Assembly (NCBI GenBank): GCA_031213475.1
Contig: JARUPZ010000003.1
Location: 12,281,580 to 12,345,579 of the forward strand
Source of the DNA: Nereocystis luetkeana
Taxonomy: Eukaryota > Sar > Phaeophyceae > Laminariales > Laminariaceae
Direction: 5' to 3'
Length of the DNA: 64,000 nucleotides
Positions 2,718 through 54,475 of this stretch are shown piece after piece. Every line of letters begins with the position of its first letter. Positions within the stretch are counted from its first letter, which is position 1. A program made the position numbers and the translations under genes. Below the pieces are notes generated by a model. That model was given only the letters and a program-made list of their open reading frames with translations. It was not told where the DNA came from and ran no database searches.

Positions 2718-2834
2718 TTACATGGCGTTTGCTTTGCTAGAGCTGTTGGCATTCAAGTACTCGCTGACGACGTACTGGAGGCCCTGGAACTCCTCCAGAT
2801 CTGCTGTTATCACGCTAGACATGACTTCCAGCCT
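2718..2834 (-). CDS. sulfotransferase copy 1, terminal exon
   Basis: 117 bp including the TAA stop. The acceptor is ccccttgcag before AGG. The exon encodes RLEVMSS, then DLEEFQGLQ and YLNANSSSKANAM. The homologous exon at 37714-37830 is also 117 bp and ends SSKANAM. Confidence 0.8.
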   Translation of the reverse strand, partial: RLEVMSSVITADLEEFQGLQYVVSEYLNANSSSKANAM

Positions 2835-5788
2835 CTGCAAGGGGGTCACCGAGTGAATGAAGGCGGTCAATCCAAGCACAGCGATGTACGGTTTATTTGA
2901 ACTGCCACACGCAGCTCAGGGGTAGCACCGCTGAAGCGCCCGTGAGAGGCGGTCACCCAGGGGGTAAACTCATGAGCGAGACATTAAAAATGTAGCACTA
3001 TAGATAGATGTGTTGCAGAGTTTCTGTCAGCGTACCTCCTGTGGGCCATTCCACATAAAGCAGCGAGTAGAAATATTCGTTCTACCCGAAAGCTCCGTAT
3101 CCACAACCTAGGTTTCTCCCTGACGACTGCAGGTCTATCGTTCGCGAAACATTTTTTTCGAGTAGAGGCGTGCTATCGTAGGGGCAGTACCTAAGGTTTC
3201 TGAGGATGCTCGCATAAGGAGATCGACGGTATACGTTACTCAAAGGGCTGCATTCCGAGAAAGGCTGAAAGTGCAGCCCGGCGAACAATCTCAGAGCCTA
3301 CCGAACGCACATCACGAAGAATATAGTAAAACACAGTTGGTATTCAAACGATACTGGGTTAAAGAGCCCGATCAGTCCGAAGTGTTTTGGCCAGAAAGTG
3401 CCACCCATATCGCAGCACGCGTCAGGAAACATTTTGCAGCTACAGTATTCATGACGCCACAATCCAGAGCGCTCTCGTGATCCCTGAGTCGTCGTCGTTG
3501 CTTGCCGATCTCGCTTTATCGAAAATACACCCGGTGGATCTTGACTCCGAGGTGAGATGGACGAGCCGCAAGGATGACCATCGATTCCCGAACCTCTCTT
3601 CCCCAATCAAGCGCGCAGGTTAACGCTACTACGGCGCGTAAAAGAGAGACTATTCCGCCGTATGTCTACCTTTGCGTACTCCTCTTTGGCAGCAGTGTAC
3701 AGCAGCTGGTCCAGCTCCGTGAGTGCGTCGATTTTGTTCTGCACCTGTGCCGACAGTAAGAGAATCCGGTACCGTGGTCCAGACGAGTCACAATCAATAT
3801 TTCGTAGAGCCAACTCTAGTCGGGACTGCTGCGAACAACCTAAGGTACTTACCACCTAGATTGTTCGTCTTTGCCGAAAACTCGTCGGGATTGCGCTACG
3901 GCGCTCTCCGATTCCTGCTGACACAACGGGACGAAACGTTCAACGAGGTTTATCGCGAACTACGACAAAAAGAGCGGGCCCGAAGTCAAGGAGGAAAGTA
4001 CCGCTTAGTTTCTCGTTTGTAGGGGTGCTGCTGACACTGGCTTGAGTCGGAACCCCTTGGCACCCTCAGCGTCTTGCCTTCTCAGGGAGGTCGTCGAACG
4101 AGGGCGTGTCGACGAACGTTTTGCCATCCCATCGCTGCAATCCCGGCTTTGTCTGGTTCAGCCTCATGTAGGTCATGTCGATCATGCTCCAGCCTAGAAT
4201 GCGCCGTAGAATCATCAGCCCCTCGTCGAACCGCTCTGTCAGAAAAACCTTCCTCGCGAAATACGGCGGTTAAAGCGTAGACGATCCACGGTTACCGTAA
4301 TGATAGGGGCAAGCGACGAAGCCCAGATGCAATCCTGATGCTGCCAGGTATCAGGTAACTACTACAAGTAACGCGATGTTTGGGGGGATCGGTACTGTAC
4401 ACCGCGCTGCGCAGTGGAGATGCGTTATCCTTTCGACTGGCGTCAACGAGGGGTTTGCGTGCGACGTGTTTGTGGTGCTGCTCCCCCTTTACTCCAAACA
4501 ATTCTGCACATTACAGCGTACTAGCTGAGGTATACTACATCTCTAGGAGACCGGCTCGTTGCCCACATGGTGGGCAGAAACGACCCAATAGATCCTAATT
4601 GACACAGACCGGCAGTCGACGGCAGGAACAACCTTCCAAAAACTTGCCCTTAATGCGGATACAACAAGTACGTTTGTCTGCTCGCTCGAACGGCTGTGTG
4701 ATCAACACTCGTATAATACTGCTTACTGTCCTTTACTGATGTTTGACGAAATCCCAACACCTTCTCACCAGCTTGAAAGACGGGAGCGCATGCTCAATCA
4801 GGTGTTCCGTCTGTTTCAATGTGTTCACCCCAAACTCCGCCGCGAGTGGGTTATGCATCAGTTTGAAAGGGTTGAGGCCGCTCGGTTGTGTCGTCAGGAA
4901 CTCCTCAAGAGATAGCTGGCCGGCGAATCAGGGGTGCGGGGCGCTTTAGCTGGTGGTACAGAACTCGATGTGTGGCAACGAGGGTCTGCGGTACGCATGG
5001 GTGTGACCGAGGCATTGCCGGCGTTCAACGTCACCGCTGGATCAATTCACGAACGCATGTATTGTGACTGCCCACGTAGACCAAAACCCAAAACGTGCAC
5101 GTGATGGAAGTTGGCGATACGCCCCACCAAACAGACGCTCTTCGCTGCGTTTTTCTCACCCATATCGTGAATAATTACGCTCTCATGCCTTTACCCCGCA
5201 CCACATTACATCTAGGTACCCACGGCCGAAGACAAACATGAGCAGAGTGAATCGTTTGAGAGGTACAAATCGCCCAGTGTGTCGACCAGGTGTTTTACGC
5301 CAATGACACGTTGCACGTTCAAGTCAAGAGTACCTGTCACAACTGCCAGACCTCTTACTGCCTTCTCAGAATACCAAATATTCAAAACGTGGTATCGTCA
5401 GGGGACGTTTTTCTTACCTTGTTCGCCGGTTCGAGGTAATAGTAGTAGTAGCTTCTCGGTCCCGTACACCAAAAAATGGGTTGTCAAACGGAAAATTAAA
5501 TGCCAAACAACGGAATGAAGGTATGGGCGTGAACGTGGTGAAAACTTGTGGTTACGTAACCGCAATCACAACATCAGCTCTGTTTACGAATTGATACCGC
5601 CTCCGCGGGGATACTACTTAACTGAAGCCTGAGCCTTCACTGTAGTGGTTAACCGGGTTCTACAACGGGCTGTCTGTTTCGCGATGTGACCGCGGCGAGC
5701 CTTAACGTCCCTAGCTTAGATTCACACTGCCACACTGGTGGTACTACGTTCACTTTCAAAGAAACTCGACGGTAGATCGAGGAAGAAC

Positions 5789-5825
<37 letters not shown>

Positions 5826-7301
5826 GTACTTTCGCGGGAATGGGTATCCGGACGCTAGGAAACAAAGGCTAAGGCAAGAAGAAGCAGGTACCTGAGAAAG
5901 TGCGATCGGGGCTCCCTCATCACCGTGATGAAGTTAACCCTGTCTGGATCTCGCATTACGCCTCGGTAGTGTCTGTGTGCGTCGGACCATTTGCCATTGA
6001 AGTGCCCTTTGTTTGAGATGTGGTAGTGCATTATGTCCACAGGCTGCTGTTGCATCCTCTCCACCTGGTCGTCGAAACAGATTGTTCACATACATACATC
6101 ATCGACGAACATCAGGTCCGAACGCGGCACTGGGTTCTAACGGGAAGACGTCCCGAAACAGATATAGTTAGGCTGAGCCCGCCCCGATGGTGTTTACCTC
6201 TGTACATAGTCTACGGTATAGTAGCTCCGCTCTCCTTCATCTGGCTGCCGATGAGGTGGACATTCCACCCATTCTTGGGCTTACTTTCGTGTTTCCTCCT
6301 TGATTTCGGTATGTTCATAGGAACATGGGCACAACGTCCAAAGACCGGCGTATCCAATTGTACTGGTATGGCACAGCAGAATGTCAACATCACACTGCGT
6401 CAAGCGCTCACAAAATGTGTCTTGTAGTAGCGAGTCTGCGCCTCCTATTGCTTCGTACCGCAGAAAATAACGCAGAAAGCGCGGCGACTCTGGCCTTGGC
6501 ACATACCCCGGGGTAACACCTGGTACCTATTGTTCTTAGTTGTGGCGGGGTTTCAAAAAGGCCCTTCCGGAGAGCGGATGGGAAAATGCTCGTGCCTCGC
6601 CGCTGCATTCGTATTATCTTGAAAGGCTGCGGTCGGGCTATACTATATCACATCAGGTTGTTATTGAACGGATTGTGTCAGTGCATAACGTACAGGGCAA
6701 GCGAAAGGAGGGAAAGTGCCAAGACAATCTAGACGTTCCTAGATATGGCGGCTTCGCGATGAAGAGCCACCTAGACGTCTGTACGGAAACGTGGAACCTC
6801 ACCTTGCCAGCGAGTGATTTGAGGTCGACCGAGGTCGTTTTGCCGAACCGCGCTAGCTGGGGGTAAGGCGCGCCATGTTTCAGTTGAGGTTGCAGCACGA
6901 CAACAGCATGCAGGTACGAAACGACAAGCGGGAGGGACAAAAATCCATTCAAGGACGGGCGGAACCAGTTGTGACGATCGAAACATCGCGTGCTGTAGTA
7001 AAGCTCCAGTCACTAAACCACGAACAATCGCGGACTACCAATCTGGCCCTCGGCATCAGTATGCTACTACAGCACCAGCATCCGCACTTCAAGCCGAGCT
7101 GACGGTTATTATGTGGGCCGTACTACAGAGTTAGGAACCTCATATCGAAATACATGTTAGCAGCAGATCGTGCGATCACAACAGAAGAACCCACGAACCC
7201 ACGCGTACCTTCAGCCCGTGCCGTACTGCGTAGCGATACAAGATGGCCGCCGTAGTAGTAGATCCTGTTTTGTGCGTTTTGACAAAAACAATGCTGCCTT
7301 C
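2718..7301 (-). CDS. galactose-3-O-sulfotransferase-like gene, copy 1 (spliced, eight exons)
   Basis: Predicted PAPS-dependent Golgi sulfotransferase of the galactose-3-O-sulfotransferase family. Exons in protein order: 7301-7209, 6856-6803, 6064-5892, 5451-5418, 4915-4769, 4248-4078, 3744-3670, 2834-2718. They join without frame breaks into about 287 residues plus stop. Visible motifs are FVKTHKTGSTT (5'-phosphosulfate loop), DIMHYH, VMREPRSHFL-S (3'-phosphate site), SYYYYYLEP, NPLAAEFG, LTERFDEGLMILRR and the C-terminal SSKANAM. All introns are GT-AG except the one after 4078, which starts GC. The N-terminal exon with start codon and membrane anchor was not found; it should lie upstream of 7301. 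A paralogue with matching exon lengths lies at 37714-54475. Introns here are short (about 250-1000 bp). The family call rests on motif order remembered from the family; exact sugar acceptor is unknown. Confidence 0.85.
3670..3744 (-). CDS. sulfotransferase copy 1, exon 7
   Basis: 75 bp, phase 0 at both ends. The acceptor follows a pyrimidine-rich tract (ttactgtcggcacag) and the donor is AAG/gtagac. It encodes 25 residues containing LTELDQLLYTAAKEEY. The paralogous exon at 38609-38683 has the same length and reads LTQLDQMLYTAAKNEY. Confidence 0.8.
4078..4248 (-). CDS. sulfotransferase copy 1, exon 6 (FDEG / GWSMIDMTY block)
   Basis: 171 bp, 57 residues, phase 0. It encodes VFLTERFDEGLMILRRILGW and SMIDMTY, the most conserved C-terminal block of the family, then FDDLPEK. 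The acceptor is gcgaggaag. The donor is AAG/gcaaga, so the following intron would be GC-AG. The paralogous exon at 40863-41033 has exactly the same length and a normal GT donor. Confidence 0.88.
4769..4915 (-). CDS. sulfotransferase copy 1, exon 5
   Basis: 147 bp, 49 residues, phase 0. The acceptor is cgccggccag and the donor CTG/gtgaga. It encodes LSLEEFL, then NPLAAEFGV and LIEHALPSFKL. The paralogous exon at 43385-43528 is one codon shorter and shows NPLSAEFGI and DVLPHFKL. Confidence 0.85.
5418..5451 (-). CDS. sulfotransferase copy 1, 34-nt microexon
   Basis: 34 nt: one base that completes a serine codon (AG/C) plus eleven codons, YYYYYLEPANK. The acceptor is ccgagaag and the donor AAG/gtaaga. 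It bridges the phase-2 end of the upstream exon to the phase-0 start of the next, so the protein cannot be read without it. An identical-length exon exists at 46241-46274. Confidence 0.8.
5791..5822. repeat. (TA)n microsatellite in an intron
   Basis: About sixteen uninterrupted TA units lie within the intron between the sulfotransferase microexon and the upstream exon. Confidence 0.9.
5892..6064 (-). CDS. sulfotransferase copy 1, exon 3 (HYH and 3'-phosphate site)
   Basis: 173 bp, starting in phase 0 and ending in phase 2 (AG/gtacct). It encodes VDIMHYHIS, then VMRDPDRVNFITVMREPRSHFL. The MREPR...(S) motif is the 3'-phosphate-binding site of PAPS sulfotransferases, and the serine codon is completed by the microexon. 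The acceptor cgacgaccag is conserved in copy 2, although its pyrimidine tract is weak; an in-frame TGA lies just upstream of it. Confidence 0.85.
6803..6856 (-). CDS. sulfotransferase copy 1, exon 2 (probable)
   Basis: 54 bp, 18 residues (LARFGKTTSVDLKSLAGK), phase 0 at both ends, with acceptor ttacccccag and donor AAG/gtgagg. It fits between the KTHKT exon and the HYH exon. No counterpart was found in copy 2, so it is less certain than the other exons. Confidence 0.6.
7209..7301 (-). CDS. sulfotransferase copy 1, 5'-phosphosulfate-binding exon
   Basis: 93 bp, 31 residues. The acceptor is cccgttttag and the donor AAG/gtacgc. It encodes IVFVKTHKTGSTTTAAILYR, the 5'-phosphosulfate loop of PAPS-dependent sulfotransferases. 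The paralogous exon at 54383-54475 is also 93 bp. Confidence 0.85.
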
Positions 7302-7531
7302 CTAAAACGGGAAACCGAAAGCGGACGAGGGGATAATTTTCAGTACCGGCGGGGACAGAATGAGTACATCCATCGCGAAAGGTACATGCGTGAAGTTGTG
7401 TGGGTTTCAATAGCAAATTCAGACAGCGCTCGAGACCGTGGACATGATAACAAACACATGCGGCAGTTTCTACCTTGCAGTCTATACGAACGGGTCCCCT
7501 CTTTATTCTTCAAAACCTGCTGGTACTTTAC

Positions 7532-7560: not shown

Positions 7561-8149
7561 CACCTGAGTGTCCTTGTTTGCTACGGAGGACTCTACCAAT
7601 GCGTTCAGGTAGCCCCTGTTGGATATCACCCGGCCTAGCGCGCCTGCTCCTCGTACATGTTGATATATATTTGGCAACGAACGGGAGGAAGGGCACGTGC
7701 AGCGTGGGGTTTGAGCACATATGTTGCAATCTGGGGTGCCCCTGTATTGTGCAGGATATTCTGTCTCAAAGCGTGCGGCGTTGTTGGGGGCTAGCGAGCT
7801 AACAAAGACAAACGTGATGTGTGTGTGCTGCATGAGTGGTGTGATACGTATCGCTCAGACAACAAACGACAACAATGGCAGTGACGTTTTGTTGATGTAT
7901 TCGCAAACAAGCCTCTGACGAGATCTGCTGCAATCCCCCGTCAGATTTATATATTTCAATGCGGCGCCGGCGTGGACGCCGTCTGCCGTCCCGTCGGGAG
8001 CTGAAGGCTTGTTGCGCCGGCTGAAAAGAGAATGTGAGCACTTGGGGGTCGACACATTTTCTCGAGGACACGAACGCGCAAGCGGGAAGCTGTCTTGGCG
8101 CGCGCAGCTCGAGAGCAACGTGAGGAAGAGGAACATTGTACTTTCATTT
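7561..8149. other. no gene assigned
   Basis: Unique-looking sequence upstream of the sulfotransferase exons. The missing first exon of that minus-strand gene could lie here, but I could not identify a start codon followed by a hydrophobic segment and a donor in frame. Confidence 0.3.
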
Positions 8150-15721: not shown

Positions 15722-16885
15722 TCACTTCTGCCTAGTCAAATCTAAGAGTGAGTTAACCCGCCCCCACTCTGTGCCCTGGCCCGGCTGAATCCCACCGCTA
15801 ATTCCTTCCTGGGCCATCACGTCGGCTACCCAACTGGCATCCTTTCCATGACTGCGAACATACGTCTTGTACGCATCGGACGCCCATCGGCCCTCACGCT
15901 GCAACACCTCTGGTGTTGCCCCCCCCGCCGACAAGTGAGTTGCGCCTCCAATCCTCAGAGAGTGCAAAGCGTACTCCTCCGCACGCACGCCCGCCAACGC
16001 AACCACTTTTCGCAGAGCTGCCGTCGCTTGCTGCTGTGTCCACATGGACCATCTGCCATTACCAACACCAAAGGCGGCAAGTGGGGCCGACGAGGGAAGA
16101 AACAAATAGCAAGACATCAATTCGATCATGAGATCGACAGCACCGCCACCGTCGCCCACGCGCAACGCCGGACCACAACGTACGCGCGTCAAAACCGCCC
16201 CTTTCCGCAGTTGGTCCCCTTTCGACCCACGAAACCTAACCTCAACGCGGTCTGCAGAAGACCACTGCGACGCGGTAAGCTGAATATTCTCTCGAAAAAA
16301 CGCTACATCGGCCCGTCGCAAGCAATAAGTTTCATGCACACGCGACCGAGTTTCCGCAAACATTTCTGACGCGCGAGTCAAAAAGCAAAAGGAAGCGCAG
16401 AGGGCAAGCCACAAGACACGACCCCCCGTCTGCCATGTTGAGATCAATTTTTCGCCCGCGATCAACATTTCCCACGAAACAGGCCGACGAACGGTTGCTT
16501 GGTTACCAGCGTCGGCATGCGAACGAGCGGCTCCTTTGAGGGCATTACCCAAAACAGGATGGGTAGTGTCCAGTTCGAACCCTCGTGAAATTCGATGTAA
16601 AAACTTGATCGCTGACAAATGGCTCTCGATAGTTGCCGACCGCAATTTCTTAGTGGCAAAAGCGTACGCTACGTACTCGAACAAATGCCACACGCTAGTC
16701 ATGCTGTCTCCGCCACGCTCTAGGAATACAGGCATGTCACAACGTACCCGAAAGTCTACCCATGCGCCAAAATGCCCCTGATAAGTGCGTTCAGACGAGG
16801 TCGCAATGGCGTTTCGCATGAGTTCGAGGCCAACACCGAAGTACAGAGAGATGTGCCCGCACCCCCCAGGTCCTGCTCCTGCCAC
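15722..16885 (-). CDS. tyrosine recombinase of the retroelement
   Basis: 387 residues. It is a lambda-integrase-type tyrosine recombinase that would integrate the circular DNA copy. Catalytic landmarks in order: arginine 171 in FLTRASEMF, the HSLRIGGATHLS motif with His308 and Arg311, Trp334 in GRWASDAY, and the nucleophile, probably Tyr342 in YKTYVR (Tyr339 is the alternative). The N-terminal half carries the SAM-like core-binding region. It overlaps the end of the RNase H frame and ends just before repeat B1. The first ATG used lies within this overlap; the true start could be internal. The frame is intact. Confidence 0.93.
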   Translation of the reverse strand: MAGAGPGGCGHISLYFGVGLELMRNAIATSSERTYQGHFGAWVDFRVRCDMPVFLERGGDSMTSVWHLFEYVAYAFATKKLRSATIESHLSAIKFLHRISRGFELDTTHPVLGNALKGAARSHADAGNQATVRRPVSWEMLIAGEKLISTWQTGGRVLWLALCASFCFLTRASEMFAETRSRVHETYCLRRADVAFFRENIQLTASQWSSADRVEVRFRGSKGDQLRKGAVLTRVRCGPALRVGDGGGAVDLMIELMSCYLFLPSSAPLAAFGVGNGRWSMWTQQQATAALRKVVALAGVRAEEYALHSLRIGGATHLSAGGATPEVLQREGRWASDAYKTYVRSHGKDASWVADVMAQEGISGGIQPGQGTEWGRVNSLLDLTRQK

Positions 16886-20766: not shown

Positions 20767-20769
20767 CCC

Positions 20770-35247: not shown

Positions 35248-35249
35248 TA

Positions 35250-37713: not shown

Positions 37714-37830
37714 TCACATCGCGTTCGCCTTGCTGGAGGCGTTGGCGTCCAGATAGGTGGTGACGATGCTCTGAAGCTCTTTGAACTCGGCCAAATCGCT
37801 GCCGAGATATCTGGCGACCGAGTCTCTCCT
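37714..37830 (-). CDS. sulfotransferase copy 2, terminal exon
   Basis: 117 bp including TGA. The acceptor is tttattgttag before AGG. It encodes DLAEFKELQSIVTTYLDANA then SSKANAM. Same length and phase as 2718-2834. Confidence 0.82.
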   Translation of the reverse strand, partial: RRDSVARYLGSDLAEFKELQSIVTTYLDANASSKANAM

Positions 37831-40800
37831 CTAACAATAAATACAGCAGAGAGAGTACCGCAAAGGCCCATGAACGACAGCAAGAAAAAAAAAAAGAGGA
37901 AGAGCGTCAGGAAACAGCCGCCGCTTGAGGTGGTGTCACTTTTTTTGTTTTAGTCATCACTTCCACTTTCCAGCCTAACTCGTAGGAGGTTTCACCCTCG
38001 ACGACCTTCTGGACAAGCCGTGGTCACAGGTGTCTACCCTTCTCCCCCCCGGTACGTACGTGCCTTTATTTTTTGTCGCGCATAGGGTTCAGCATTCCCA
38101 CTGCTCGTCGATGTTCATCGAATGTAGCTAACTCACGCTCTCGCGCTTTCCGCTAATCAATTTCTTTTCATGCAAGAAAAAGCCCTTACGAGCATGCACT
38201 CGGTGGGACTTGAACCCCAAGGAGGCGGCGGGTCGCGCCATACCAGCCTCTACAAACGCGGGCATAGAAGCACAAGCCGGTTGCCGCCGGAAGCGTCCGT
38301 TCTACTGTTTTGCGCCTCCGCACTGTCCCATCTGGTAAGGCGATCACACCGCTGTGACAGCAAACGTACGCTGCTCAAAGCTACCCGCCAGTCCCTACAG
38401 CAGGCGGCGTCCCACCGTTCGATGTTGATAGCGACCGCACTCCGACCCGTACATACACGCTACTCGAAACCGCGCATCACCCCGACCAGTAGATACACGC
38501 CGCTCGGAAACTGCGCATCGCTCTGGAGATGCTGTCCTCCTCGAAAGCATGAAACAAAACAGTGAGCATCCCCACGTACAAAACAAAACAACTAACTGCT
38601 GTTCTGACCTTGTGGTACTCGTTCTTGGCGGCGGTGTACAACATTTGGTCCAGCTGGGTCAAACCGTCGATCAAGTCCCGAGTCTGCGAAGGCCCACGGA
38701 AGGGATCGGAGTCACAAGCGAGATTACTCTGGATTCATTTCTCAAGCCGCAGCCCTAAAATGGCGATCCAGGTGGGTAGCAAGCGACAGCAGCGAACCAG
38801 GTTGCCGCCAATATTTGTGTAGCGCTATATAGGCGTTGCGTGGTGAGTCTATCGCCTCTCGGGCGGTGTTGTGTATCATGCGAGTCGTCACGTACGGAGT
38901 ATGTGGCCTCTCGCGCGGTTGCGTGTCGATGCGAGTCTTCTTCATCTGCAGCAGTAAGTGCATGTCCCTTTGGGACCCAGGGGTCGACACTATTTTATTA
39001 GATAAAACTATGCTCAGAGATGCCGCATTACCAACCGGTGTCTACGACCATAGACAGACTAATGACACCACGCGGCGTGGATGTCGGACATGCCCATGCG
39101 ATGTAGCTGGGATAAGACCCTTATTGATACATCAGCAGCTCGGGCTGGTTTGTGGGGGCAGTGCCGTAATCATCCCTACGAGTTGGACACTTTTTTCCCC
39201 CTCGTTCCAAGTCCCAAAAGGAGGCATTTTTCGTGCGTGCTGTCTGAACGCGCATGGTTGTGCGCGTGCGGGTACATGATGTCGAACGGAGCCGTTGCTA
39301 GACACGCAGGCCTCGTGTCCCTGATCAGGCTTATTCGCAATCACGTGCATGCACGTGCAAGCAAGCACTCGTTCAGCTCAACCCAAGCACGTGGCGAAGG
39401 GTAAATAAAGAGCGTAGCGGCTGAAAAAAACAGCGCGCGGCGAATTTTGACTGGTTCACGCAAGGCTAGGCGGGGCAAACGACGTACCAGTCTGTTCATG
39501 ATTGTACTACGGGGGGCCATAGTAAATAGGACCTACGGTACACACAAAAACCTATATATTTACTCAATTTACTAACGATATTTGGTCCTATTTACTATGG
39601 TCCCCCGTAATAGTGTTGCTGAGAACATTTTGCGGCATTAGGTACTCTGATCCACGATTTTCCAACTCCGCTGTATAGGTTTGATTCGTGGGAATCCCAC
39701 TGGAACTCCCCAATACAACTTGTTTCATAAAGGTGTAAGGTGCGGCTTTTTTCCGTATTTTCTCCTGCCGCAGATTGGGTAACAACATAGGAAAGCTCCC
39801 CACACCTCCACGTACAACATGTGGAAGTGCGTCGATTTAAATCGGTTGCCGTAGCACACGACGTATGGCCGTTTCGATCGGGACCGCTTGAGCGTGCCTG
39901 AAACCTGGTTGACACGCCTGGTTTTGATAGGAGGGGGGAGGGTCACTAATGTCATGTATCGCTGTAGTCGTAGGGCGGTTGTAAGGAGAGAACCCACCCC
40001 CTTGGCCGCACGTGATGAGCCGATGCAGGCGCTATGTTCGGGCTCTGGGCAGTTCTCCTTTAACTACGTGTGATACCTCTCTCCAACCAAATAGCACTCT
40101 ACTGGTTGTACCGTATCATGATATGCCGAATGTATGTGGTAAGTCGGTGCACACGCACACCTTGTTCAGCCTTTGCGCTGGGTGCCTCTTACCGCGTGCG
40201 ATACAGGGATATCCGAGTGACACTGTAGGTAGTCGATCAGTGTATACGCTTTGTTGGGCTGTTCAGGCTCTGCGCAAGCGTGCCTCGTACTGCGATTGAT
40301 GGAGACCTCCTCTCGACTAGCTTGTTACGATGCCATATAGATCTCCGCGTGCCAGTCAGGCGTGGTGTTTTCTCCCCAAGCTCCATTCTAAAAGCCGTGT
40401 TTGTTTCCACGTGACAAGTCAAGAGGTGGCGTTGGATGGCGTTGTTGTACAACTGCAGCATCTCGGTGGTGTGTATCTTCCTGTTGACTAGAGTACGGAC
40501 CCGTCCACCATAAACGCCTACTACAGTACCGACCTGAGCAAGGATCAACCCCTTTTTTTGCTGTAGTGCTGCAGCCCCGCTCAGAGGGCAAACTTCTGAT
40601 TAGTTGAGTGGCTTGTCCCCACAGCTGCACCGCAGTTTTTTGCCCCTAAAAGGGTTGAAAGCTTATAGTGACATTGTCAGCCGGCGTCCGCGGTGGCTTG
40701 GTAGGTGGTCCGCGTGCCTATCAAGATCAATGTCGTGGGGCACGTGTAACCCAACCCAACCCAACCCAGGGTAGAGCCAAACCGAACCAATCCAACCCAA

Positions 40801-43800
40801 CCTAACCCAGCGAGCGTACGTACGCACGCACTCCACTATCCCTCCGACTGCCTCGCTCTCACCTTCTGAGGGAGGTCGTCGAAATGCGGCACATCGACGA
40901 GCTGCTTGCCGTCGAACCGGGTCGAACCTTTCTTCGTCTTGTACATGGAACTGTACGTCATGTCTATCATCGACCATCCCAGCAGCCGTCGCAACACCAT
41001 CATACCTTCGTCGAACTCCTCCGTCAAGATTATCTGGGCGCACGGGGAGGAATTTCGCGACGCCTCTAGGTCAGACAAGACCCAGGGTCGAACCTAACCG
41101 AGCGTCGGGCCTGCAAACCGTACGCGCAAAAAGCGCTTCGTGGCTCCGTGCAGGGAAAGGGGTGCGACGGTTTTTCCAGCGCTCGTCGGTGATTCTACCA
41201 CGGGCAAGGTTGAGGTTGCCAACGCCGAGCAGCAGGGTGTTTCTGGGGGGAGGGGGGGGGGGGGGATAAATCAGGTCGAGAGCTTTCCAAAAAAACACAA
41301 CTGATCAAATAAAGTTTTTTGTCAACCACTGACACCTTTGCCAAGAAGACGAGCGCCGAGAAAACATCGCACCTCTGCTTGTGAAGCTAGAGCGCGTTAC
41401 GGTACACGGCTCGTGGTGGCATCGACTTTCGTGAATCAAGTATATATACACACATATACTATATAATAGATAGATATATATATGACGAGAGGCAACACAG
41501 AAACGCAACGGTTTCAGCTATCTCGACGACCTGGGTTGGGAGAGAGGGGGGGGGCGTATTCGTCCAGGACTACCTGCCTGGGCAGGGCGGCATGAGGCAC
41601 GGGGGGCTGAATCCTCGCGTGAACAGCGGAGTTGTGTCGACGAGAGTTATGCGCGGTCGTCTCAGCTGCCAAATGTCCCGTACGCAGCGTGGGCGCATAC
41701 AAGCAGTAAGTCGCCTAACCTTGTGGCGCAGCTCTCGTGTAGCGGAGCAAGCACGCGGCGGTGTTCTCGGGAGAGAGCGCGACACGACATACGCCGCGGT
41801 TCTGCGCCTCGCGGTACATACACTTGCGAGAGGGGTAACACAAGAGGCCATAACCACACCCTCTTTCGCCCAAGAAAGCCCCCAGAGGGTGGGCACACAA
41901 CCGAGGGGCCACACGGTAGCCAAGACAGGCTGTTCAGCTTGCACGGCCGGGAAAACGCCAGGCAAACGTACTGTAGGGCTCCTGCATTACGCGGGCACGG
42001 TCTAGAAGCGAGAGTGAACCCAGGTAACCGATGGCCTACCCATGGGCCAGCAGTCTCACACATGGGTGTCCATGGAAGTGAGGGCACCGGGCACCCATCA
42101 GTGGCGAGTGCTGGTCAATGGGTAGCCCACGGATAGTACAAGGGTCGTCCGCCCCTGAATTTTTTGGTGGTGGCCCATGGTTACAAACAACCCAATTTGG
42201 GGGGGGGTGGGGGCACTTGCCCTCTCTATAGATGAAACTCCAATGAGGTGTGCTTCGATACGGATGAAGAGTAAATCACCCCTGTAGGGGTGGTGCCCTA
42301 GTTTCTCAGCACCTCGCATGAGCAGCTAGCTAGGGCAGTATCTCACCCGGTATGTGGCTTCGAAAGAAGCCAGTTCGCGCGACATCTGACCAACAAATTC
42401 AATGCGATGGTGCGAAAAAAACGACTATACCAGTAAAAGCAGCATGGAGTAGCCGGTGTGCTAGTAGTTGCTCACTCGGGGAAGTCAACCGGTCAGAAAA
42501 TATTGCCTCAGAAGGCAAGATAGTGCAACCCACTCCTTGGGGTGACTCTATTACATGGCAGTCGACCCGTTTAGGACTGCACTCCCGTTGTGGCGACAAA
42601 ACACCGGGGAATAGAGTCAGGTGTAGGTTTATGCATATGACTGTGCACTAGTGAAAGGATTCACATCTCAGGCAGATAGATGTTCTATGTATGTCTACAG
42701 ATGATCTACAAATCATCTAGGTCATCACCTGCCGTTGTGCGAGGTTGTGCGCGATCTATTGTATCGTAGTACAGACCCAACCCAATAAATGTGTGCTACA
42801 GCAAGCAGGTTGTGCGGCTCCCATCCGCCAACATTAGCTACAGGTATATCATACACGATCGGGAGTTACTCTGCCTCGAACGATCTAGATGATCTGTAGA
42901 TGATCTGTGCGAGGTGAGAAGGGGATCATGGTGACAAGAAGTATCGCGTGAGGAGCTCTAGAGCTGCGCCTCACCCAGCAGCCGACTTGGACAAGGGGGG
43001 AAAAAAAAAGTTAAGCTTACTTAAAGCCCGATATACAGCCCACTGTTTTTTTCGGCGCCATTTAGCGACGACTAAGCGTGTAATGCCCCATTATCCTTGC
43101 AGCGATCGCGCACGAATCTCACAGCAAAGACGTGAGGAGAAGAAAACATGTCCATCCGCGCGAAAACGTGCGCCGTTCCAAGGGTGCGCGGCCGAGGAGG
43201 ACCGAGTGACCTCTGCACTAAAGGCAATAGTTTGGCGTCCGCCAAAACAAGGAAACAAGTTTGTATTTTTCTTGTCTTTGTTTTGTCACAAGGGGTGAAG
43301 GTGGTTGTCTCTTGGCAAGATTTTGCTCCTCTGGGCTGTGCTATAAACGTACCAGTATAGCACAACGGTTGAAGGTTGGCTCACCAGCTTAAAATGCGGG
43401 AGCACATCTGCAATTAAGTTTTCCATCTCCGCGCGTGTCCTGATGCCGAACTCCGCCGAGAGCGGGTTGAACAAGTTAGACTGGGCCGTGTCGCCGCTCT
43501 GTTGCTGCAAAAACGCCCCGATCGGTTTCTGTTTTCAAGACGGCGGAGGGGAGGAGGGGGGGGGGGGGGGGAAGGGGGGGGAGGGGGGGTGTGCTCGATA
43601 GGAGATATGTACTCGATCTCATGCATGGCCGTAGTCGCAAGACCCTCGCCTCCCTACAATGCCGGGACGGAGCATGTCGGGTTTTCACCGACCAGGCAGA
43701 CGTTGCTTGGGGGCAAATGGAAGGGCATTAAATAGGGTCCTCAAACAGGACAGCAAGCAACTAAACGAAGTGATCTCATGTACTTCGCTGTACGCGAATG

Positions 43801-46800
43801 CAACGCGTACACACCGGAGGCCAGCGGCCTTCAGCTATATGTCCACGCGCTGCTCAACGGGTACACTCCGGGATTTTTTTTTGCGGACCCCGTTCCTCCA
43901 CCAGCACGTGTTCAAATGTGCAGCTCTCTTTCTCTGTGTATCGTTCGGGTCGCTGTTTTTGGCTTACATCAGGTCACCTCATTCTGCAGTAGCGGTAATA
44001 AAACTTCGAAACAGCCACTAAGGATTCGGACCACGAGCTGGTTCAAGCACATCGCCCCAAAAATTCGCCAGCCACGAATGCCGCATGCAACAGCTACTCA
44101 AATGTCACATAGTTGGTATCCTACCAGCCGCCATCCATGTACAGCGGAAGAGGGTGACATGGCTAGTTTTTTGTCCAAGGGCCTAGGACTGGCGCTACCG
44201 CCGAAAACGTGACCCAACCAATCGCAGGCCTTCAAAGAGGTCCAACAATAGTAACGCGCCTTCCGTAGGAATATCATTTTCTCATTCCCATTTTTGCTTT
44301 GGAACGAGCCGCTTCCAGGTGGCCCAAGGCAAGTTTGTAGAAAGTTTCACGCAAAATGTTCGAAGATCTGATTTGCGTATGACCAACAGTAAGCAATAAT
44401 TAACGCCCAAAATCGATTACGTACTAAAAACTACAGTGAGTAATTCCGAGGCGATGCCGGAATTTGCACATTAACCTCACAAAGGTCCAAATGTCCACGC
44501 CGTTTTCAAGACATAAACCCCTGAACTTTTGCACACGTGTTCTATACCAGGTACGCCTCTGCCGAACCATCGACGAATTACTTTTTGTTTGCGTCGCCGA
44601 ATACTTGGTATCCCCTGAGACGAGACGTAAACCTCCGAAAAAAAAAAATACCACGAGTATCTGTCGGGAGAAAAAACAAGAAAAACGTTAACGGGTCGTC
44701 AGGAGCTGATAGAACACATCTGCCAAATTTCAGGGTGTAGAATCTCCCAAAAACGCTTTTGAGGACCTTTGGGCGGTATGCTTGAACCGACCTGTATTGT
44801 AGCATCACACCCTCCTCGAGGCGGGGGTGGACAGGGCACTAGTTTCGCTCGCTAGCGCGCTGTTGCTCTGGCGCAATTTTTTGCGGGCGGAAAAACTGAC
44901 GCCTTAGACTTTTCAACCATGTTTGCACTGCACTGCATGCACTGCTGTGTGTAGAAGCATGTTTTTTATTGGGTTTTTTATTTATTTATTTTTAGTCGTC
45001 ACTTTTACTTTCCAGCCAAACTCGTAGGAGGTTTTTACCCTCAGCGGTCTTCTTCCGGACAAGCCGTGGTCACAGGTGTCGTCCCTTATCCCCCCCGGTA
45101 CGTGCCTTCAATTTTGTCGCGCATAAGGGTTCAGCATTACCACTGCTCGTCGATTTCCATCAAATGTAGCTAACTCACGCTCTCGCGCTTTCCGCCAATC
45201 ATTTTTTTTTTTGCAAGAAAAAGTCCCTACGAGCATGCACTCGGTGAGACTTGAACCCACGAAAATGATCTTGATAGGCACGCGGACCACCTACCAAGCC
45301 ACCGGTGATGCCGGTTGCATTTGCCTCTAATTTGAAGTGTCTTGTACCAACAACGGCAGTGCAGCGAGTCCTAATAGCTAAGGGCCTAAAATGGTCAAGT
45401 ATTGCCCTCGCGGAAAATTCCGAACGAAACACATATCTGGCACTCGGATGGTGTAATTTTTCCGTCCAGATAGGTTCACGCTCCAGTGAGGTACGTTCCA
45501 AATAGACACTTGAAAAAACGAACAAACAAACTAACGAACAAACAAACAAACACACACAAACAAACACACTAACAAACAAACACACACAAACAAACACACA
45601 AACAAACACACAAACAAACACACAAACAAACAAACAAACAAACAAACAAACAAACAAACACACAAACAAACAAACAAACACACAAACAAACAAACAAACA
45701 AACACACAAACAAACAAACAAACACACACACAAACAAACAAACAAACAAACAAACAAACAAACAAACAAACAGAGCTGTGAGATCGAAAAAATCCTCAAA
45801 AACCCATCGTTGCAAGTTTTGCGTGATACTGATACGAACTGACACCAACGCGCGTTATGACGCGGCCGGGGTGTGTGGGTTACGTTTTTCCTTCTTTTTT
45901 CCGAGAACAAAAAAAGTGTGGCACGACAAAGCAAGCACGCGAAGAAAAAAAAAAAAAAGCGCGAAGAAAGCGAAAGGCCGTGGAAGGGACGGTTTTTTGT
46001 CGTGGGCTCTCGCTAAGCACGAAGCAGGTGCTTATATCATAATCAAGTGAAAATAAGACAAGAGACAAACGTAAGTAAAACCCATGTACGTACACGGGAA
46101 GAAGAAGAAGAAAAAGTGGGGCCGTCGCGGGAAAAAAAAAAAGAAAAGTCAAGAATGGACTTGAAGGGTACGCAGACCAAAAATTATCTCTCCAAAAGTT
46201 ACCGACACAAGAGCGTCGGGTTGGGTGCGCGCACTCTGACCTTTGTCTTCGGCTGTAAGAAGTAGTAGTAGTAGCTGAAAATGGGGCCCAGCAAGAGCAG
46301 CGAGCGGGCACACAGGTGGGCCAGGGGCAGGGGCAGAGGGGAGGGGCAGGGGAAGGGAAGGGGAGCAACAAAAAGGCAAAGCAAGAGGAAGCAGCAGACA
46401 AAAACGGTGTCGACAGATGGGCGAGAGGAGCGATCGCAGATACGAAGAGTGGGTGGACACTTATCCGACGCTTGCACGTTACGTACGCATGCATACATCC
46501 CCCATCGTCGGCAGATTCCTCTGGTTCCTTGTCTATGGTCGTACGACTACGGCCATGCATGAGACCGGGTACATCTCTCCTATCGAGTGCACCCCCCCCC
46601 CCCCCCCCCCCCGTTGGCGCCATCAATGAGGTGTTCGCATCTGATAAAAAGGGACTGAAAACAGCTGCGAGCCTGATCCACAAGATGTGGAGGTAAAACG
46701 CAGAACTCAACTCCTCGCCCGGATCTATGAAGAGATGCTCAGGCGACCTGACCGACAGCAGACACACGCGGGTTCCGCGTTTTCCGCTCCTGCTCCTGAC

Positions 46801-49800
46801 AATATTTCGGTCCGGGTCGAAGATGCCAAAATGTCGGCCTTAACCCCTTCTCTATTTTCACTCCGAAAATGACCCCTCTCGTCTAATTCCAACTAAATGT
46901 CCCGAAAACGACGGTGCAGCTTGAAACGGGTTATTAACGCAGAGCCAAAGCTATGGAAAAAGCAGGACGCTCCAGCACCGACGTTTTAACCCTTTTAGGA
47001 CTGCAGTCTCGTTTTGGGGACAACTGGAGACAAATTACTTGGAACTTGACTGGTTTGTCCCCAAAACGGGACTGGAGTTCTAAAGGGGTTGAGGCGGCAG
47101 CCTGCTTGGAGTTAGCGCCCGGTCATTTTTTGAAGCAGCAAAAGGAATGTGAGCTTTTTTGCGGAACAGATAAACCGCTTTATTCTGATTTTACTAGTAC
47201 CAAGTCTGACCGAAATTATCCCCCCCCCAACAAAAAAAAAATTGTTCGCCCAATGAGATTCTTCATCACTAGCTTGTCGAACACGTTGGCGTTTGCGCGA
47301 GGAAGACGAGGAAAGTTCTGGCGATAGTGGCACCCATGAGCCGGTCGGTACCCTTCGATTTCCAAAATAAGGTACCTGGTACAAAAGTACCTTATATTTT
47401 CCGACCAGACTGATACATCACACACTGGCAGCAGAACGGTTACGCTTCCCGAAACGGAGAAACCGTTTCGAAACCGTTTCGTTTCATGTTGCTACGGCTG
47501 CGTTATACTCGTAAACCTCGTTAGGCCTGCAGTCCCGTCTGAGGGACAAACTACATTACATGTGAGCGATTTGTCCCCAGAACGGAAATGCAGCCCTGAA
47601 AGCTATAGTAGTCGCTAATAGGGCGGGGGATGGGGTAATAATTCGTGTGGCGTTTTACCTCAGCAGGTGATTTCGCGGCTCCCGCATGACGGAGATGAAG
47701 TTTACCCTCTCAGAGTCCCTCATTATTCGTCGGTAGTAGTCCTCGGCCTCGTTCCACGTGCCCTCATACTGGCCGAACACGGACATGTGGTAGTGCATTA
47801 TGTCCACGCGCCCCCTGCCTTGTTTCGTCTGGTCGACGCGACCATCGAAACGCCATCGTCGCAAGCAAACCGGGGGCGGGGCGGGGGGGGGGGGGGGTCA
47901 GGGGGTAGCTCGCTTTTTATTCTCGCACGAGTACGAGCAAGCTTGGCCAGAGTGCCAGAGTTGCGTGGGCCTCCGCGTGTCTTGTGGGAGGCTTTTTTCC
48001 AGAGACCGGACGGCATGTGTGTTTGGCTTTGGCAGTGTTTCTTTGAGAGACCACGGGGCTTTTTTGTTTACAGCTAACTCATCGCCAGCATCTAGACCAA
48101 GACACACGCTCAAACAACCCAGCCGTCTATCGATCAATAAAAGCTTCACCCCCTGCGCTGTCAAGCTTTATCGGCGCACTTTCATCCAAGCGTCTGCCGG
48201 AAAATTAAACAGAAAGGCTCAATCCATGCTCTTGGGCCGACCCATGATCTCCGGAGGCGATCATTGTTTCTGCTCTCACGTGTGGCGGCGATTGCTAACA
48301 CCTCGGGGACCCAGGTACGACGACCTAAAAAACGAGCAAATAGATACTGTTATCACCCGTCTGTTTTACGAGGGACCCTAGTAAATAGGACCAAATACTG
48401 TTGGTAAAAACAACGAAATATATAGATTTTTGACTATACCGTAGGTTCTATTTAATATGGCCCCCCGTAATAGTGCCATCGTCATGCTGCGCGGGGGTCC
48501 CGCGGCTCCTTTCGTCTGCGCGTCCCATGTACTGTACGAGTACCTCTCGCCGCTAGCGCAAGCCAGCAATTAATAGCTTCGTGTGGTCGAGTGATCGATA
48601 ACGCCGTAAAAATCGTCACCTTTTGCCGAAGTTTTAGTTTTCCCCTCTTAGACCTATTGCCAATGGAAACGCGAAGTTCAAAAGTTTTTTTTCAAATATA
48701 TCGCTTTCAAAAAACAGCCGAAAAAATTATCGTACCGCCGCTGTGGGAAAAAAAGAGAAAAATATTTGATTTTTTCTTTTTTTTCCCCCAACGGCTGCAG
48801 GCGGCGCAATTTGTGCTTTTCTGGTCGCAAATTGTCAACACGGTGATCGAAACCAGCTCGTGCGACGATCGACGCTCGATCTCGACATAGACTCAGCCCA
48901 CGGCCAACCCACTCGGTATCTGGCAAGCCCAACGAATATAGATGACGGCCTCGAAGATATCAGGTGGATCCATGGTCTAGGGGGCGAGAGCTTGCCGGCG
49001 GCGTCCTACGGTATCCTCCCAAACCTGAAAAAAAGACTATTTGTTGCCATTCGAGACGGATGGAGAAGTTTTGTCTTCTGTTTTGTGCAAACCAGCGGCC
49101 AAATGTTTTTTTATCCCACGCCTGGCCAGCTCCCGCCACATGACACCGGCCATGGTGTGAAGACGATGACCCTAGGGTGGGTCGGAGCGCCTAACGAGCG
49201 CACTCCGTTCAGAATTCATGACGCAATCGTTGGTTTCGTTGATCGATGTCTGTCGAGGACTCGGAATCTCGCCGCTTCGAACCAAAGATCGGCCTGAGTT
49301 TTTCTCAAGCCGATGTTGGCCCAACATCGGCCCCAGATTTGCTTTTTTTGGGCTTTTCCAAAAGTTAGGAACTTTTTTTTTTTTTCAGGTGGCTCATAGG
49401 AAGCGTGTTCTGAATTTTTTTTTGCGGAGATCTTTGAAATTAAAAGTTTTTATTGCAACTTCGCTGTCCCATTGGCATAGGTCTTAGACCTATGCCAATG
49501 GAAACGCCAAGTCCGAAAGTTTTCTTTCAACACACTGCTTTCAAAGAACAGCCCGAAAAAAATCCTCGTACTGCCACTGTGGGGAACCGCGGCCCACTTC
49601 TGTGGAACAGAACACTCAAATTATTCCACGGTACGTACCAGGTAAGTAGGTTCTCCACTGGAGGGTGAGCGCTGTCGAGAAAAAACGATCAAAACAGCGC
49701 CAAAAAAAATGATAGCACCGCTGTGCGAACTCGTCTCTCTTTTTATGGTACTACAAAAACGATGGCACGTCTGGGCGAATTCAGCGCTGTTTCCGGTGCT

Positions 49801-52800: not shown

Positions 52801-54475
52801 TGACCACCAGACCTCGTATGTCTCTGTGCGGGTTCGTAGCATGAAGAAATCGGCACGGACATCGCAACAAAATGTGCTGACGTTTCGACGGCTGCGTATC
52901 ATGGAAACACCAGCTCACTGTGATGAACAACCACACACGAATAAAACACACACATACCGGTACACACCTGTGTCACGGCTTCTGGCAGCGGGATCGCCGA
53001 GTTGTGGTCATTGAAGTACGCAAGCTGCGTCCCCCGACAAAAAAAAAGTCAAGGAAGAGGCGTGTGTCAATTGAAGGGGCAGGGGCAGAGGGGGGGAGGC
53101 GTGTGTGTGTGTGGGGGGGGGGGGGGTAAGAGGCAAGGAGGTGAGAAAAGACGTGCTCTCACCGGTTGCACCCGGTACATCAAGACGTTCAGAGCAGTCA
53201 AACGTGTAGCGAAGGGTACGCAGCGTGAGCTATAGTTTTTTTCCCTCGACTCTGGTGTGGGCACTGAGTTGGAGCAAACGCCTTTTATTTACAGCAGTAC
53301 CTTGGAGGACCCATACTTGAGAGAGGAAGGCAGAAATTTGACGAACCCGCCTGGTGCACTAAGGAGGGAGCCATGTAATCGAGAGATAGGCCATTCTATA
53401 TCATCCAAACTTACGCGTAATGCCGCTTTTGTTTTTAGGCCTTGTCGAGTACGGATTGGTGGTAGTACGTGCCGACAATCTTGACGCGACAGCTAGCGCG
53501 AGAGTATGTGTACGAAGCAATCTTTCCGCAGCCACTGCTGCCGGCTATCGTCGGAGGGACTGCTGTGCGAGCATCAGCAATCGCGCACGACTGATACAAG
53601 TATTCCTGCTTATGATCTGGGACGACTGCCGCTGCAGGCGATGGACTTCGGCTACGGCGTACTCTCCTCGGTTCGTAACGCCTTCCCTCCGTGTCGAACT
53701 CCTCGGTGACGCTAACCGGATAAGCTCTTCCATTTTTTCAAACAAGTTAGAATGTAGTGATAGTCATAGTACAACTAACCACACTTTGGTAAAAACCGGA
53801 GCCCCGACCTGACCTCAACCCATTCCTGTCCCGACTTCTGCAGTTATCGGCGGTTCCCCTACAAAAATTGCCTCCACTGAAAAGCTACGAGTATCAGGGT
53901 ATATACATGCACAAGGTTCTTATCCGGGATGTTGTCGGCTTGAAATCCCGGGGGCGTTGCCATAACTCGCGATTTTGAAGACCCAGCGCACCCGCAACGG
54001 GCCCTGGCCGGGACCCACACTTGCCCCGTGGCGTACACACGAACCCCCGGGTGCCCCGCAGCCGCGGGTCCGAGAAAAGGCCCGCAGCCGGAGGAGACAC
54101 GTAAACGGAGTACCAGGTATTCCGGAAGGGGGGGGGGGGGACAATTTGGTACGTGATGCTGTTGCCGTGCCTTTTTCTCCATATGAGATGGCCGCTGGCG
54201 TAAAGAGTGCACGGTGCGTACAGATACCACACAGCAGGAACGACAGTATCACTGAACCTATCCCGCTGCTGTGTCAGGTTAAGAGGCGTAACAACAGCAG
54301 TACCACCACCACCACCACCACCACCGCCGCCACCACTGCTGGATGGAGGCAGCTGCTGTGCAAGGCTACGAGGCGCGCTTGCCTTCTTGTCGTGCCTCCG
54401 CCCATAGCGGAACAGAAGGTAGGCCAGGGTGGTGGAGGCCGTCTTGTGCGTCTTGATAAACGCAATGTTGCATAA
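37714..54475 (-). CDS. galactose-3-O-sulfotransferase-like gene, copy 2 (spliced, at least seven exons)
   Basis: Paralogue of the gene at 2718-7301. Exons in protein order: 54475-54383, 47828-47659, 46274-46241, 43528-43385, 41033-40863, 38683-38609, 37830-37714. Motifs include FIKTHKTASTTLAYLLFRYG, DIMHYHMS, FISVMREPRNHLL-S, YYYYFLQPKTK, NPLSAEFGI, LTEEFDEGMMVLRRLLGW, LTQLDQMLYTAAK and SSKANAM. Five exons have exactly the lengths of copy 1 (93, 34, 171, 75, 117 bp) and intron phases agree. The equivalent of the 54-bp second exon was not found, so it is either too diverged, lost, or the gene is broken. Introns total about 16 kb and are packed with mobile elements, which share the intron space without disrupting any exon found. 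The first intron would start with GC. The predicted role is PAPS-dependent sugar sulfation in the Golgi. Confidence 0.85.
37940..38288 (-). mobile_element. tRNA-derived SINE, copy 1
   Basis: On the minus strand a tRNA-like head with B box ggttcaagtccc is followed by a body of about 250 bp ending in gaaagtggaagtgatga and an A-rich tail. The body is about 80% like 44970-45316 (shared gagcgtgagttagctacatt and acaagccgtggtcaca complements). It lies in the last intron of sulfotransferase copy 2, in the gene's sense orientation. Confidence 0.7.
38609..38683 (-). CDS. sulfotransferase copy 2, exon 6
   Basis: 75 bp, phase 0, acceptor gggccttcgcag, donor AAG/gtcaga. It encodes LTQLDQMLYTAAKNEYHK. Same length as 3670-3744. 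Confidence 0.82.
39507..39610. mobile_element. TA-type MITE in a sulfotransferase intron
   Basis: 104 bp, ctacggggggccatag to ctatggtcccccgtaa, with TA at both borders. Confidence 0.87.
40549..40654. mobile_element. TTAA-type MITE, diverged
   Basis: About 106 bp with ccccttt and ctaaaaggg ends and the internal gggcaaact / ggcttgtcccc pair. The flanks tcaa and ttga are degenerate TTAA sites. Confidence 0.65.
40691..40740 (+). repeat. tRNA-like SINE head, solitary
   Basis: It matches the head of the SINE at 45316-45260 over cggtggcttggtaggtggtc and cgcgtgcctatcaagatca, but in the opposite orientation and without the B box or body. The A box tggcttggtagg is intact. Confidence 0.65.
40748..40811. 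repeat. CCCAA-type simple repeat
   Basis: About ten imperfect acccaa units directly after the SINE head fragment. A similar tract lies at 62530-62575. Confidence 0.7.
40863..41033 (-). CDS. sulfotransferase copy 2, exon 5 (FDEG / GWSMIDMTY block)
   Basis: 171 bp, 57 residues, acceptor gtgcgcccag, donor AAG/gtgaga. It encodes IILTEEFDEGMMVLRRLLGW and SMIDMTY, then FDDLPQK. Exactly the length of 4078-4248. Confidence 0.9.
41520..42140. other. GC-rich intronic segment with open frames on both strands
   Basis: Within the intron between exons 4 and 5 of sulfotransferase copy 2. Frames of 130-140 codons overlap in four registers; none has a motif. A short inverted pair (ctacccatgggc / caatgggtagccc) lies at 42036-42130. 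It is possibly an unclassified insertion. Confidence 0.3.
42567..42609. mobile_element. half of a TTAA-type MITE
   Basis: Only the left arm remains: cgtttaggactgcactcccg, then ggcgacaaa. Confidence 0.45.
43385..43528 (-). CDS. sulfotransferase copy 2, exon 4
   Basis: 144 bp, 48 residues, acceptor cttgaaaacag, donor CTG/gtgagc. It encodes KPIGAFLQQQ, NPLSAEFGI and LIADVLPHFKL. It starts seven residues before FL, exactly as in copy 1. Confidence 0.86.
43556..43745 (+). repeat. poly(G)-anchored dispersed repeat
   Basis: G-runs (about 12, 8 and 7 G) precede tgtgctcgataggagatatg, then tactcgatctcatgcatggc and the ccctacaatgccgggacgga block. It sits immediately next to the sulfotransferase exon, in antisense. 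Confidence 0.65.
44970..45316 (-). mobile_element. tRNA-derived SINE, copy 2
   Basis: The best copy. The minus-strand head contains A box tggcttggtagg and B box ggttcaagtctc with a five-pair T-arm. A body of about 240 bp and a tail of (aaat)n type follow. It lies in the intron after the microexon of sulfotransferase copy 2, sense orientation. A 20-bp piece of the same 3' end occurs at 59129-59148. Confidence 0.75.
45520..45771. repeat. (CAAA)n / (CA)n tetranucleotide array
   Basis: 250 bp of caaa units interspersed with caca. The complementary strand gives frames of repeating LFVC residues up to 188 codons long, which are artefacts of the repeat. Confidence 0.95.
46241..46274 (-). CDS. sulfotransferase copy 2, 34-nt microexon
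   Basis: One base plus eleven codons (YYYYFLQPKTK), acceptor cccattttcag, donor AAG/gtcaga. With the AG at the end of the previous exon it makes the serine of the 3'-phosphate site. Identical in length and phase to 5418-5451. Confidence 0.82.
46470..46612 (-). repeat. poly(G)-anchored dispersed repeat
   Basis: Minus orientation: a run of about 22 G, then tgcactcgataggagagatg, then catgcatggccgtagtcgta and gaccatagac. The rest of the family consensus is missing. Confidence 0.65.
46990..47088. mobile_element. TTAA-type MITE
   Basis: 99 bp with an internal duplication of ggggacaa(ctggagacaa). The left flank is TTAA (46986-46989), the right ttga. Confidence 0.82.
47514..47603. mobile_element. 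TTAA-type MITE, diverged
   Basis: About 90 bp retaining ctgcagtcccgtctgaggga and gatttgtccccagaacgg. Ends are eroded. Confidence 0.6.
47659..47828 (-). CDS. sulfotransferase copy 2, exon 2 (HYH and 3'-phosphate site)
   Basis: 170 bp, phase 0 to phase 2, acceptor cgtcgaccag, donor AG/gtaaaa. It encodes VDIMHYHMS, then RVNFISVMREPRNHLL. One codon shorter than 5892-6064. Confidence 0.86.
48366..48470. mobile_element. TA-type MITE
   Basis: 105 bp, ttacgagggaccctagtaaa to tatggccccccgtaa. TA follows on the right; the left flank has mutated to tt. Confidence 0.83.
48651..49483 (+). mobile_element. 833-bp ORF-bearing DNA transposon, copy 1
   Basis: Inverted ends gacctattgccaatgg and ccattggcataggtc are flanked by TTA on each side, a three-base duplication typical of PIF/Harbinger-like insertions. 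The interior carries the open frame 48860-49297. A second, about 90% identical copy is at 50267-51093, an inverted diverged copy at 57077-57919 and a 5' fragment at 49487. It sits in the first intron of sulfotransferase copy 2. Confidence 0.75.
48860..49297 (+). CDS. conserved ORF inside the 833-bp element, function unknown
   Basis: 145 residues with no family I recognise. Segments such as DGLEDIRWIHGLGGESLP, ILPNLKK, GWRSFVFCFV, TLGWVGAPNERTPFRIHDA and VGFVDRCLSRTRNLA recur in the copies at 50.3-50.9 kb (interrupted by a TAA where copy 1 has CAA) and at 57.3-57.7 kb on the minus strand (129 residues, with two compensating shifts). It is possibly a fragment of a captured host gene or of a transposase. 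Expression is unknown. Confidence 0.4.
   Translation: MRRSTLDLDIDSAHGQPTRYLASPTNIDDGLEDIRWIHGLGGESLPAASYGILPNLKKRLFVAIRDGWRSFVFCFVQTSGQMFFYPTPGQLPPHDTGHGVKTMTLGWVGAPNERTPFRIHDAIVGFVDRCLSRTRNLAASNQRSA
49487..49610 (+). mobile_element. 5' fragment of the 833-bp element
   Basis: It begins gacctatgccaatggaaacg right after the TTA that closes copy 1, and follows the element for about 120 bp before diverging near ctgtgggga. Confidence 0.65.
50041..50236. repeat. polypurine tract (GA/A-rich)
   Basis: About 195 bases with almost only A and G on the plus strand. Lysine/glutamate-rich frames over it are artefacts. It lies directly before copy 2 of the 833-bp element. Confidence 0.9.
50267..51093 (+). 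mobile_element. 833-bp element, copy 2
   Basis: 827 bp, lacking the first six bases of the left end. The right end is ccattggcacaggtc followed by TAA. The reading frame is broken into 50310-50702 and 50715-50909 by one stop. Confidence 0.72.
51394..51481. mobile_element. TTAA-type MITE, partly eroded
   Basis: About 88 bp. The left arm is diverged (gcactcccattcgtggggac) and the right arm typical (ccccaaaacgggactggggt). Confidence 0.72.
51950..52035. mobile_element. TTAA-type MITE
   Basis: Left flank TTAA (51946-51949), preceded by aaagggg as if a second copy ended at the same site. The arms are identical over 30 bp; the right terminus has lost gggg. Confidence 0.83.
52036..53880. other. intronic DNA of sulfotransferase copy 2, no further exon assigned
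   Basis: A (CTG)n run lies at about 52557-52582 and a 12-G run near 53110. The 54-bp second exon expected from copy 1 was searched for here and not found. Confidence 0.35.
54298..54332. repeat. (ACC)n microsatellite
   Basis: About ten ACC units just downstream (gene sense) of the KTHKT exon of sulfotransferase copy 2. Confidence 0.85.
54383..54475 (-). CDS. sulfotransferase copy 2, 5'-phosphosulfate-binding exon
   Basis: 93 bp, 31 residues, acceptor gcgtgcctcag. It encodes NIAFIKTHKTASTTLAYLLF then RYGRRHDKK. The donor is AAG/gcaagc, a GC-type splice site. Same length as 7209-7301. No upstream exon with a start codon was identified. Confidence 0.86.

Follow-up and report, generated by a model that had tools for sequence, protein, structure and literature searches.

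Two genes, A and B, on a 64,000-nucleotide stretch of the Nereocystis luetkeana genome (the window; contig C3, C3:12281580-12345579) are very probably intact members of the Gal-3-O-sulfotransferase family PF06990 belonging to a four-gene cluster, with the introns of gene B having been enlarged by dispersed elements. This analysis provides corrected models for two brown-algal PF06990 genes and assigns them to a family numbering at least 13 loci, one gene being lengthened by identifiable dispersed elements with its coding frame still under constraint. The models are of use for annotation and for the choice of fucoidan sulfotransferase candidates.

Rebuilding of the genes from their splice sites gave nine exons each on the minus strand (E1 to E9, Table 1), extending from 7301 to 2345 in A and from 54475 to 37309 in B. 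A sequence-only reading of the window had described one exon series common to both genes, with seven pairs of equal or near-equal length. The common series was upheld by nine matching pairs without stops; the seven pairs correspond to E1 and E3 to E8, E2 and E9 having been overlooked. Four of the five pairs reported as identical (93, 34, 171 and 75 bp) were as described, while the fifth, given as 117 bp, was the 113-bp E8 plus 4 donor bases; the remaining two pairs, E3 (173/170 bp) and E5 (147/144 bp), did differ by one codon. The intron phases (0, 0, 2, 0, 0, 0, 0, 2), also said to agree, were the same in A and B at all eight introns. No in-frame stop was present in any exon of either gene, and all exons were open and flanked by consensus or GC-AG splice sites, with GC donors in 2 of the 16 E1-E9 introns of both genes (after E6 in A and after E1 in B). 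The joined proteins of 303 aa (A) and 302 aa (B) were identical at 159 of 301 aligned residues (53%; BLASTP E value of 3e-115), a likeness that is beyond chance. The P-loop reads KTHKTGSTT in A versus KTHKTASTT in B, and the REPR block reads REPRSHFLS versus REPRNHLLS.

The donors following E8 are AT/GTAAGT in A and AT/GTGAGG in B. A phase-2 GTAAG or GTGAG donor always reads TAA or TGA and, hence, produces an apparent stop codon after E8. E8 was ruled out as the end of the protein by the conservation of E9 in four genes, the phase, length and stop position of this exon being common to the four paralogues. Spans of 4.6 and 16.8 kb had been given previously; these correspond to E1 to E8 with the apparent stop included (4,580 and 16,758 bp), but E9 and a probable upstream exon, E0, extend both genes, to 5.3 kb in A and to 26.3 kb (at least 26 kb) in B. 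E0 was found by comparing A and B with two neighboring genes, C and D, and has a counterpart in all four; comparison of A with B for 5′ exons yielded mostly repeats. E0 may be either a short exon or a piece of a longer one, codon-position counts made by eye having favored neither. Golgi sulfotransferases of the PF06990 type carry an N-terminal signal anchor; upstream of A and B, no convincing hydrophobic exon of this kind and no start codon were found.

Table 1. Exons of genes A and B, clustered genes and intron elements (window positions unless prefixed by C3)
Feature	Position	Strand	Remarks
A E0, probable, 52 bp	7564..7615	-	upstream; acceptor tentative
A E1, 93 bp	7209..7301	-	KTHKTGSTT P-loop; PF06990 genome match C3:12288782-12288892
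A E2, 54 bp	6803..6856	-	absent from sequence-only reading; 54-bp counterpart in C and D
A E3, 173 bp	5892..6064	-	VDIMHYH and REPR..S
A E4, 34 bp	5418..5451	-	YYYYYLEPANK
A E5, 147 bp	4769..4915	-	
A E6, 171 bp	4078..4248	-	LTERFDEG...GWSMIDMTY; GC donor next
A E7, 75 bp	3670..3744	-	
A E8, 113 bp	2722..2834	-	sequence-only reading ran 4 bases into donor
A E9, terminal, 52 bp including stop	2345..2396	-	absent from sequence-only reading
B E0, probable, 52 bp	63589..63640	-	upstream; 9.1-kb intron to E1; acceptor tentative
B E1, 93 bp	54383..54475	-	KTHKTASTT; GC donor next
B E2, 57 bp	52968..53024	-	absent from sequence-only reading
B E3, 170 bp	47659..47828	-	
B E4, 34 bp	46241..46274	-	
B E5, 144 bp	43385..43528	-	
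B E6, 171 bp	40863..41033	-	
B E7, 75 bp	38609..38683	-	
B E8, 113 bp	37718..37830	-	
B E9, terminal, 52 bp including stop	37309..37360	-	absent from sequence-only reading
Gene C, E0-E9	C3:12157575-12168071	+	
Gene D	C3:12234002-12244305	+	
~840-bp dispersed element	48647..49486		B intron E2-E3; full-length copies mostly 90-97% identical, among 40 scored
Second, more diverged copy of ~840-bp element	~50290-51094		
~340-bp SINE-like element	44974..45314		B intron E4-E5; full-length copies 88-92% identical, among 40 scored
Second copy of SINE-like element	~37940-38217		B intron E7-E8
Old degenerate repeat piece	3257..3431		A intron E7-E8; scattered matches, 68-84% identity

The Gal3ST family name had been proposed from motifs, and a profile search with the joined exons supported it: PF06990 matched A with 76.4 bits (E value of 2.6e-21) and B with 68.6 bits (E value of 6.2e-19), both above the curated cut-off of 27 bits. 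Animal GAL3ST1-4 belong to this family, as do algal proteins. Both A and B do contain the KTHKT and REPR...S motifs, and the two proteins are also like the family in their VDIMHYH and LTE.FDEG...GW blocks. They differ from it in that the match ends near profile position 275 of 402. The alignments cover positions 68-275 (A) and 68-271 (B), about half of the profile; the C-terminal third is without a match, and exons E7 to E9 lie outside the aligned part. The part of the profile before position 68 would fall in 5′ exons upstream of those found. We take the KTHKT loop to be the 5′-phosphosulfate site of PAPS and the REPR...S block to be its 3′-phosphate site. Judged by their family, A and B likely encode PAPS-dependent sulfotransferases, which would transfer sulfate to a carbohydrate hydroxyl, probably of a cell-wall polysaccharide such as fucoidan. 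A sequence search of solved structures returned no sulfotransferase, the output being two unrelated weak rows, and among bacterial and archaeal genomes 17 stretches fitted one of two peptide patterns, none of which was confirmed as a relative. One of 74 stretches from viral contigs was confirmed, as a weak relative with 26% identity on contig L001. This small KTHKTGST protein (L001:794-1462), aligned over part of the query, is encoded on a phage-like contig in which a neighboring ORF appeared by eye to be phage terminase-like.

Searching of the genome (465,085,209 bases in 1,987 contigs) produced 12 exon matches with the PF06990 profile and 47 with protein A, together representing at least 13 loci. 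Four of these, C, D, A and B, are located within 190 kb of contig C3. Candidate exons were required to be within ~18 bases of the reference lengths, and exons below set scores were dropped, so that the sharing of lengths outside A to D is partly built into the following counts: E1 was 93 bp in 11 of 13 loci, E6 was 171 bp in 8 of the 12 in which it was found, E7 was 75 bp in 11 of 11 and E8 was 113 bp in 7 of 7. Equal exon lengths therefore typify the family as a whole and do not single out A and B, whose exon plan is in large part that of the family. Gene C is the sole locus of the 13 with KTHE for KTHK in the P-loop and HYE in the MHYH block; every exon of this gene is open despite these alterations, and the encoded enzyme could be altered or inactive. 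In the family member at C21:4265449-4265541, the frame of E3 breaks shortly before the REP block, which could reflect damage to the gene, an additional intron or a misassembly. EsV-1-7 repeats are expanded in brown algae; for this repeat (PF19114), all 150 scored matches (1,710 candidates) were over the cut-off in this genome, with none in 14 control genomes, as befits a brown-algal host.

The difference in size between A and B lies in the introns. Seven of the eight introns were longer in B, the exception being E7-E8 (835 bp in A versus 778 bp in B), and the median E1-E9 intron was 471 bp in A and 1,781.5 bp in B. Within-window repeats occupied 3,693 bases of the 16,258 in the introns of B and 43 of the 4,045 in those of A. 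Comparison with ~0.3 Mb of host sequence, excluding matches among genes A, C, D and a further locus, C17, on account of their paralogy, detected repeats over 3,515 of the 16,258 intron bases of B, 0 of 4,045 for A, 1,802 of 9,237 for C and 682 of 5,985 for D. Genome-wide, intron E2-E3 of B gave 12,748 first-look candidates and intron E4-E5 gave 7,210, with 40 scored in each case; these introns contain, respectively, the ~840-bp and the ~340-bp elements of Table 1, the latter having a tRNA-like box by eye. The 36 candidates from the whole of gene A consisted of paralogous family members, a run of TA and a single old, degenerate repeat. The suggestion in the sequence-only reading of later intron growth by mobile elements thus holds for B, with gene A serving as the control: the introns of B are lengthened by mobile elements, and the repeats shown, at ~22% of its E1-E9 introns, account for part but not the whole of the excess.

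Other repeats were observed in the window. Copies of a short element with an inverted repeat, around GGACTGCAGTCCCGTTTTGGGGACAAA, lie in the introns and flanks of B (46983-47601, 51418-52035, 55.2 kb and 56-59 kb) and elsewhere, and units of 77 bp and 118 bp are tandemly arrayed at 61170-61408 and 62871-63273, in the presumed E0-E1 intron of B. Overlapping long ORFs on the minus strand at 15722-20778 have, by eye, the look of a DIRS/Ngaro-type retroelement, with a YVDD block and a tyrosine-recombinase-like HSLRIGGAT; against Pfam, these ORFs gave a weak integrase match below the cut-off (E value of 0.0073) and a weak CCCH finger.

The presence of A and B on the same strand of one window, with the same exon plan and 53% identity, could indicate a direct duplicate pair in which these two genes alone matter, and an old duplication had been proposed previously. 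The age of the split stands, as dS was ~1.6 between A and B versus 0.62 to 0.75 among A, C and D (B-D being saturated), but the pairing does not. A was closer to C, D and C17 (64-69% identity) than to B (54%), while B was 58% identical to C21 and 56% identical to C12 (partial rows). Sisterhood of A and B, two of at least 13 family loci, was rejected (p-AU of 0.006), and the donor after E6 is GC in A, C and D but GT in B and C17. A direct pair is, on these grounds, extremely improbable. A appears from the tree to group with C, D and C17, this branch having a support of 90/90, below the tool's star, and of 67/88 when C12 (fragmentary, with 49% of columns) and C21 were omitted; the nearest relative of B is uncertain, the support for B with C21 being 58/15. 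Five loci (A, B, C, D and C17) carry a phase-2 E3-E4 intron, which splits off the 34-bp E4; in the remaining eight the coding sequence is continuous at this site, the frame of C21 being broken shortly before it. A single clade of A, B, C, D and C17 gave a borderline p-AU of 0.0486. Should B truly stand apart, this intron would have been gained twice at one site or acquired by gene conversion from cluster neighbors, which we regard as unlikely; simpler accounts would be that the intron was lost in other branches of the family or that the tree is unresolved.

The size gap could also have arisen by loss of sequence from the introns of A instead of growth in B. Over E1-E6, B (13,613 bp) was the longest of the 12 loci measured (12 of the 13 family loci, all from one genome), with a median of 4,466.5 bp and most other loci spanning 2.6 to 7.7 kb, a result supporting growth in B rather than shrinkage of A. 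Furthermore, the introns of B hold high-copy elements whose copies elsewhere are mostly 86-97% identical, indicative of fairly recent insertion, so that loss from A is quite improbable as the source of the gap. A different objection is that A, B or both may be silent copies or copies without function, in keeping with which the promoters and 5′ ends of A and B were not found upstream. The open exons and the splice sites of both genes argue against this, as do their intact P-loop and REPR motifs. The dN/dS ratio was 0.26 between A and B and 0.32 to 0.33 among A, C and D, indicating that the coding frames have been kept. Silencing or loss of function in one or both genes is highly improbable.

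The preferred explanation is that of intact family members with enlarged introns in B. An ancestor of the family would have passed on much of the exon plan to A and B. Gene A would have stayed compact in most introns, as did C and D, and the introns of B would have expanded by insertion of dispersed elements, some of them recent; it is in this sense that we infer that B grew and that the other genes did not shrink. We also infer the activity, acceptor and secretory location: each protein would bind PAPS, with KTHKT at the 5′-phosphosulfate and REPR...S at the 3′-phosphate, and the enzyme would most likely act in the secretory pathway, sulfating a hydroxyl group on a cell-wall polysaccharide that contains galactose or fucose (fucoidan).

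Parts of several published reports allow comparison with other brown algae. PF06990 is counted among algal sulfotransferases (PMC11625862, PMC7554865), and ST clades have been given a candidate role in fucan sulfation (PMC11468063); the parts of the brown-algal sulfotransferase reports cited here contain no tested activity for these genes. In Saccharina japonica, there are 44 ST genes, 25% of them in the PF06990 group, with five tandem clusters and many introns (PMC7291590), and the N. luetkeana family is alike in group, tandem clustering and intron content. ST1, ST4 and ST7 of that species are in tandem within ~180 kb and have 12-13 exons encoding 421-426 aa (PMC7291590); these resemble the present genes by description alone, PF06990 not being stated for them in that part of the report, and orthology would be a guess. 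Five contigs of Saccharina latissima are annotated as galactose-3-O-sulfotransferase 3 (GAL3ST3), of which the top-expressed contig is male specific, with cell-wall polysaccharide as the suggested target (PMC6742357); their likeness to A and B is one of annotation. In Ectocarpus, the median autosomal intron is 524 bp and 81% of genes have at least one genic TE insertion (PMC12477816). Against this value, from another genome, the medians of 471 bp in A and 1,781.5 bp in B may be compared. ST families, tandem clusters and introns that bear TEs have been reported from brown algae before (PMC7291590, PMC12477816), and the pattern observed here is an ordinary one.
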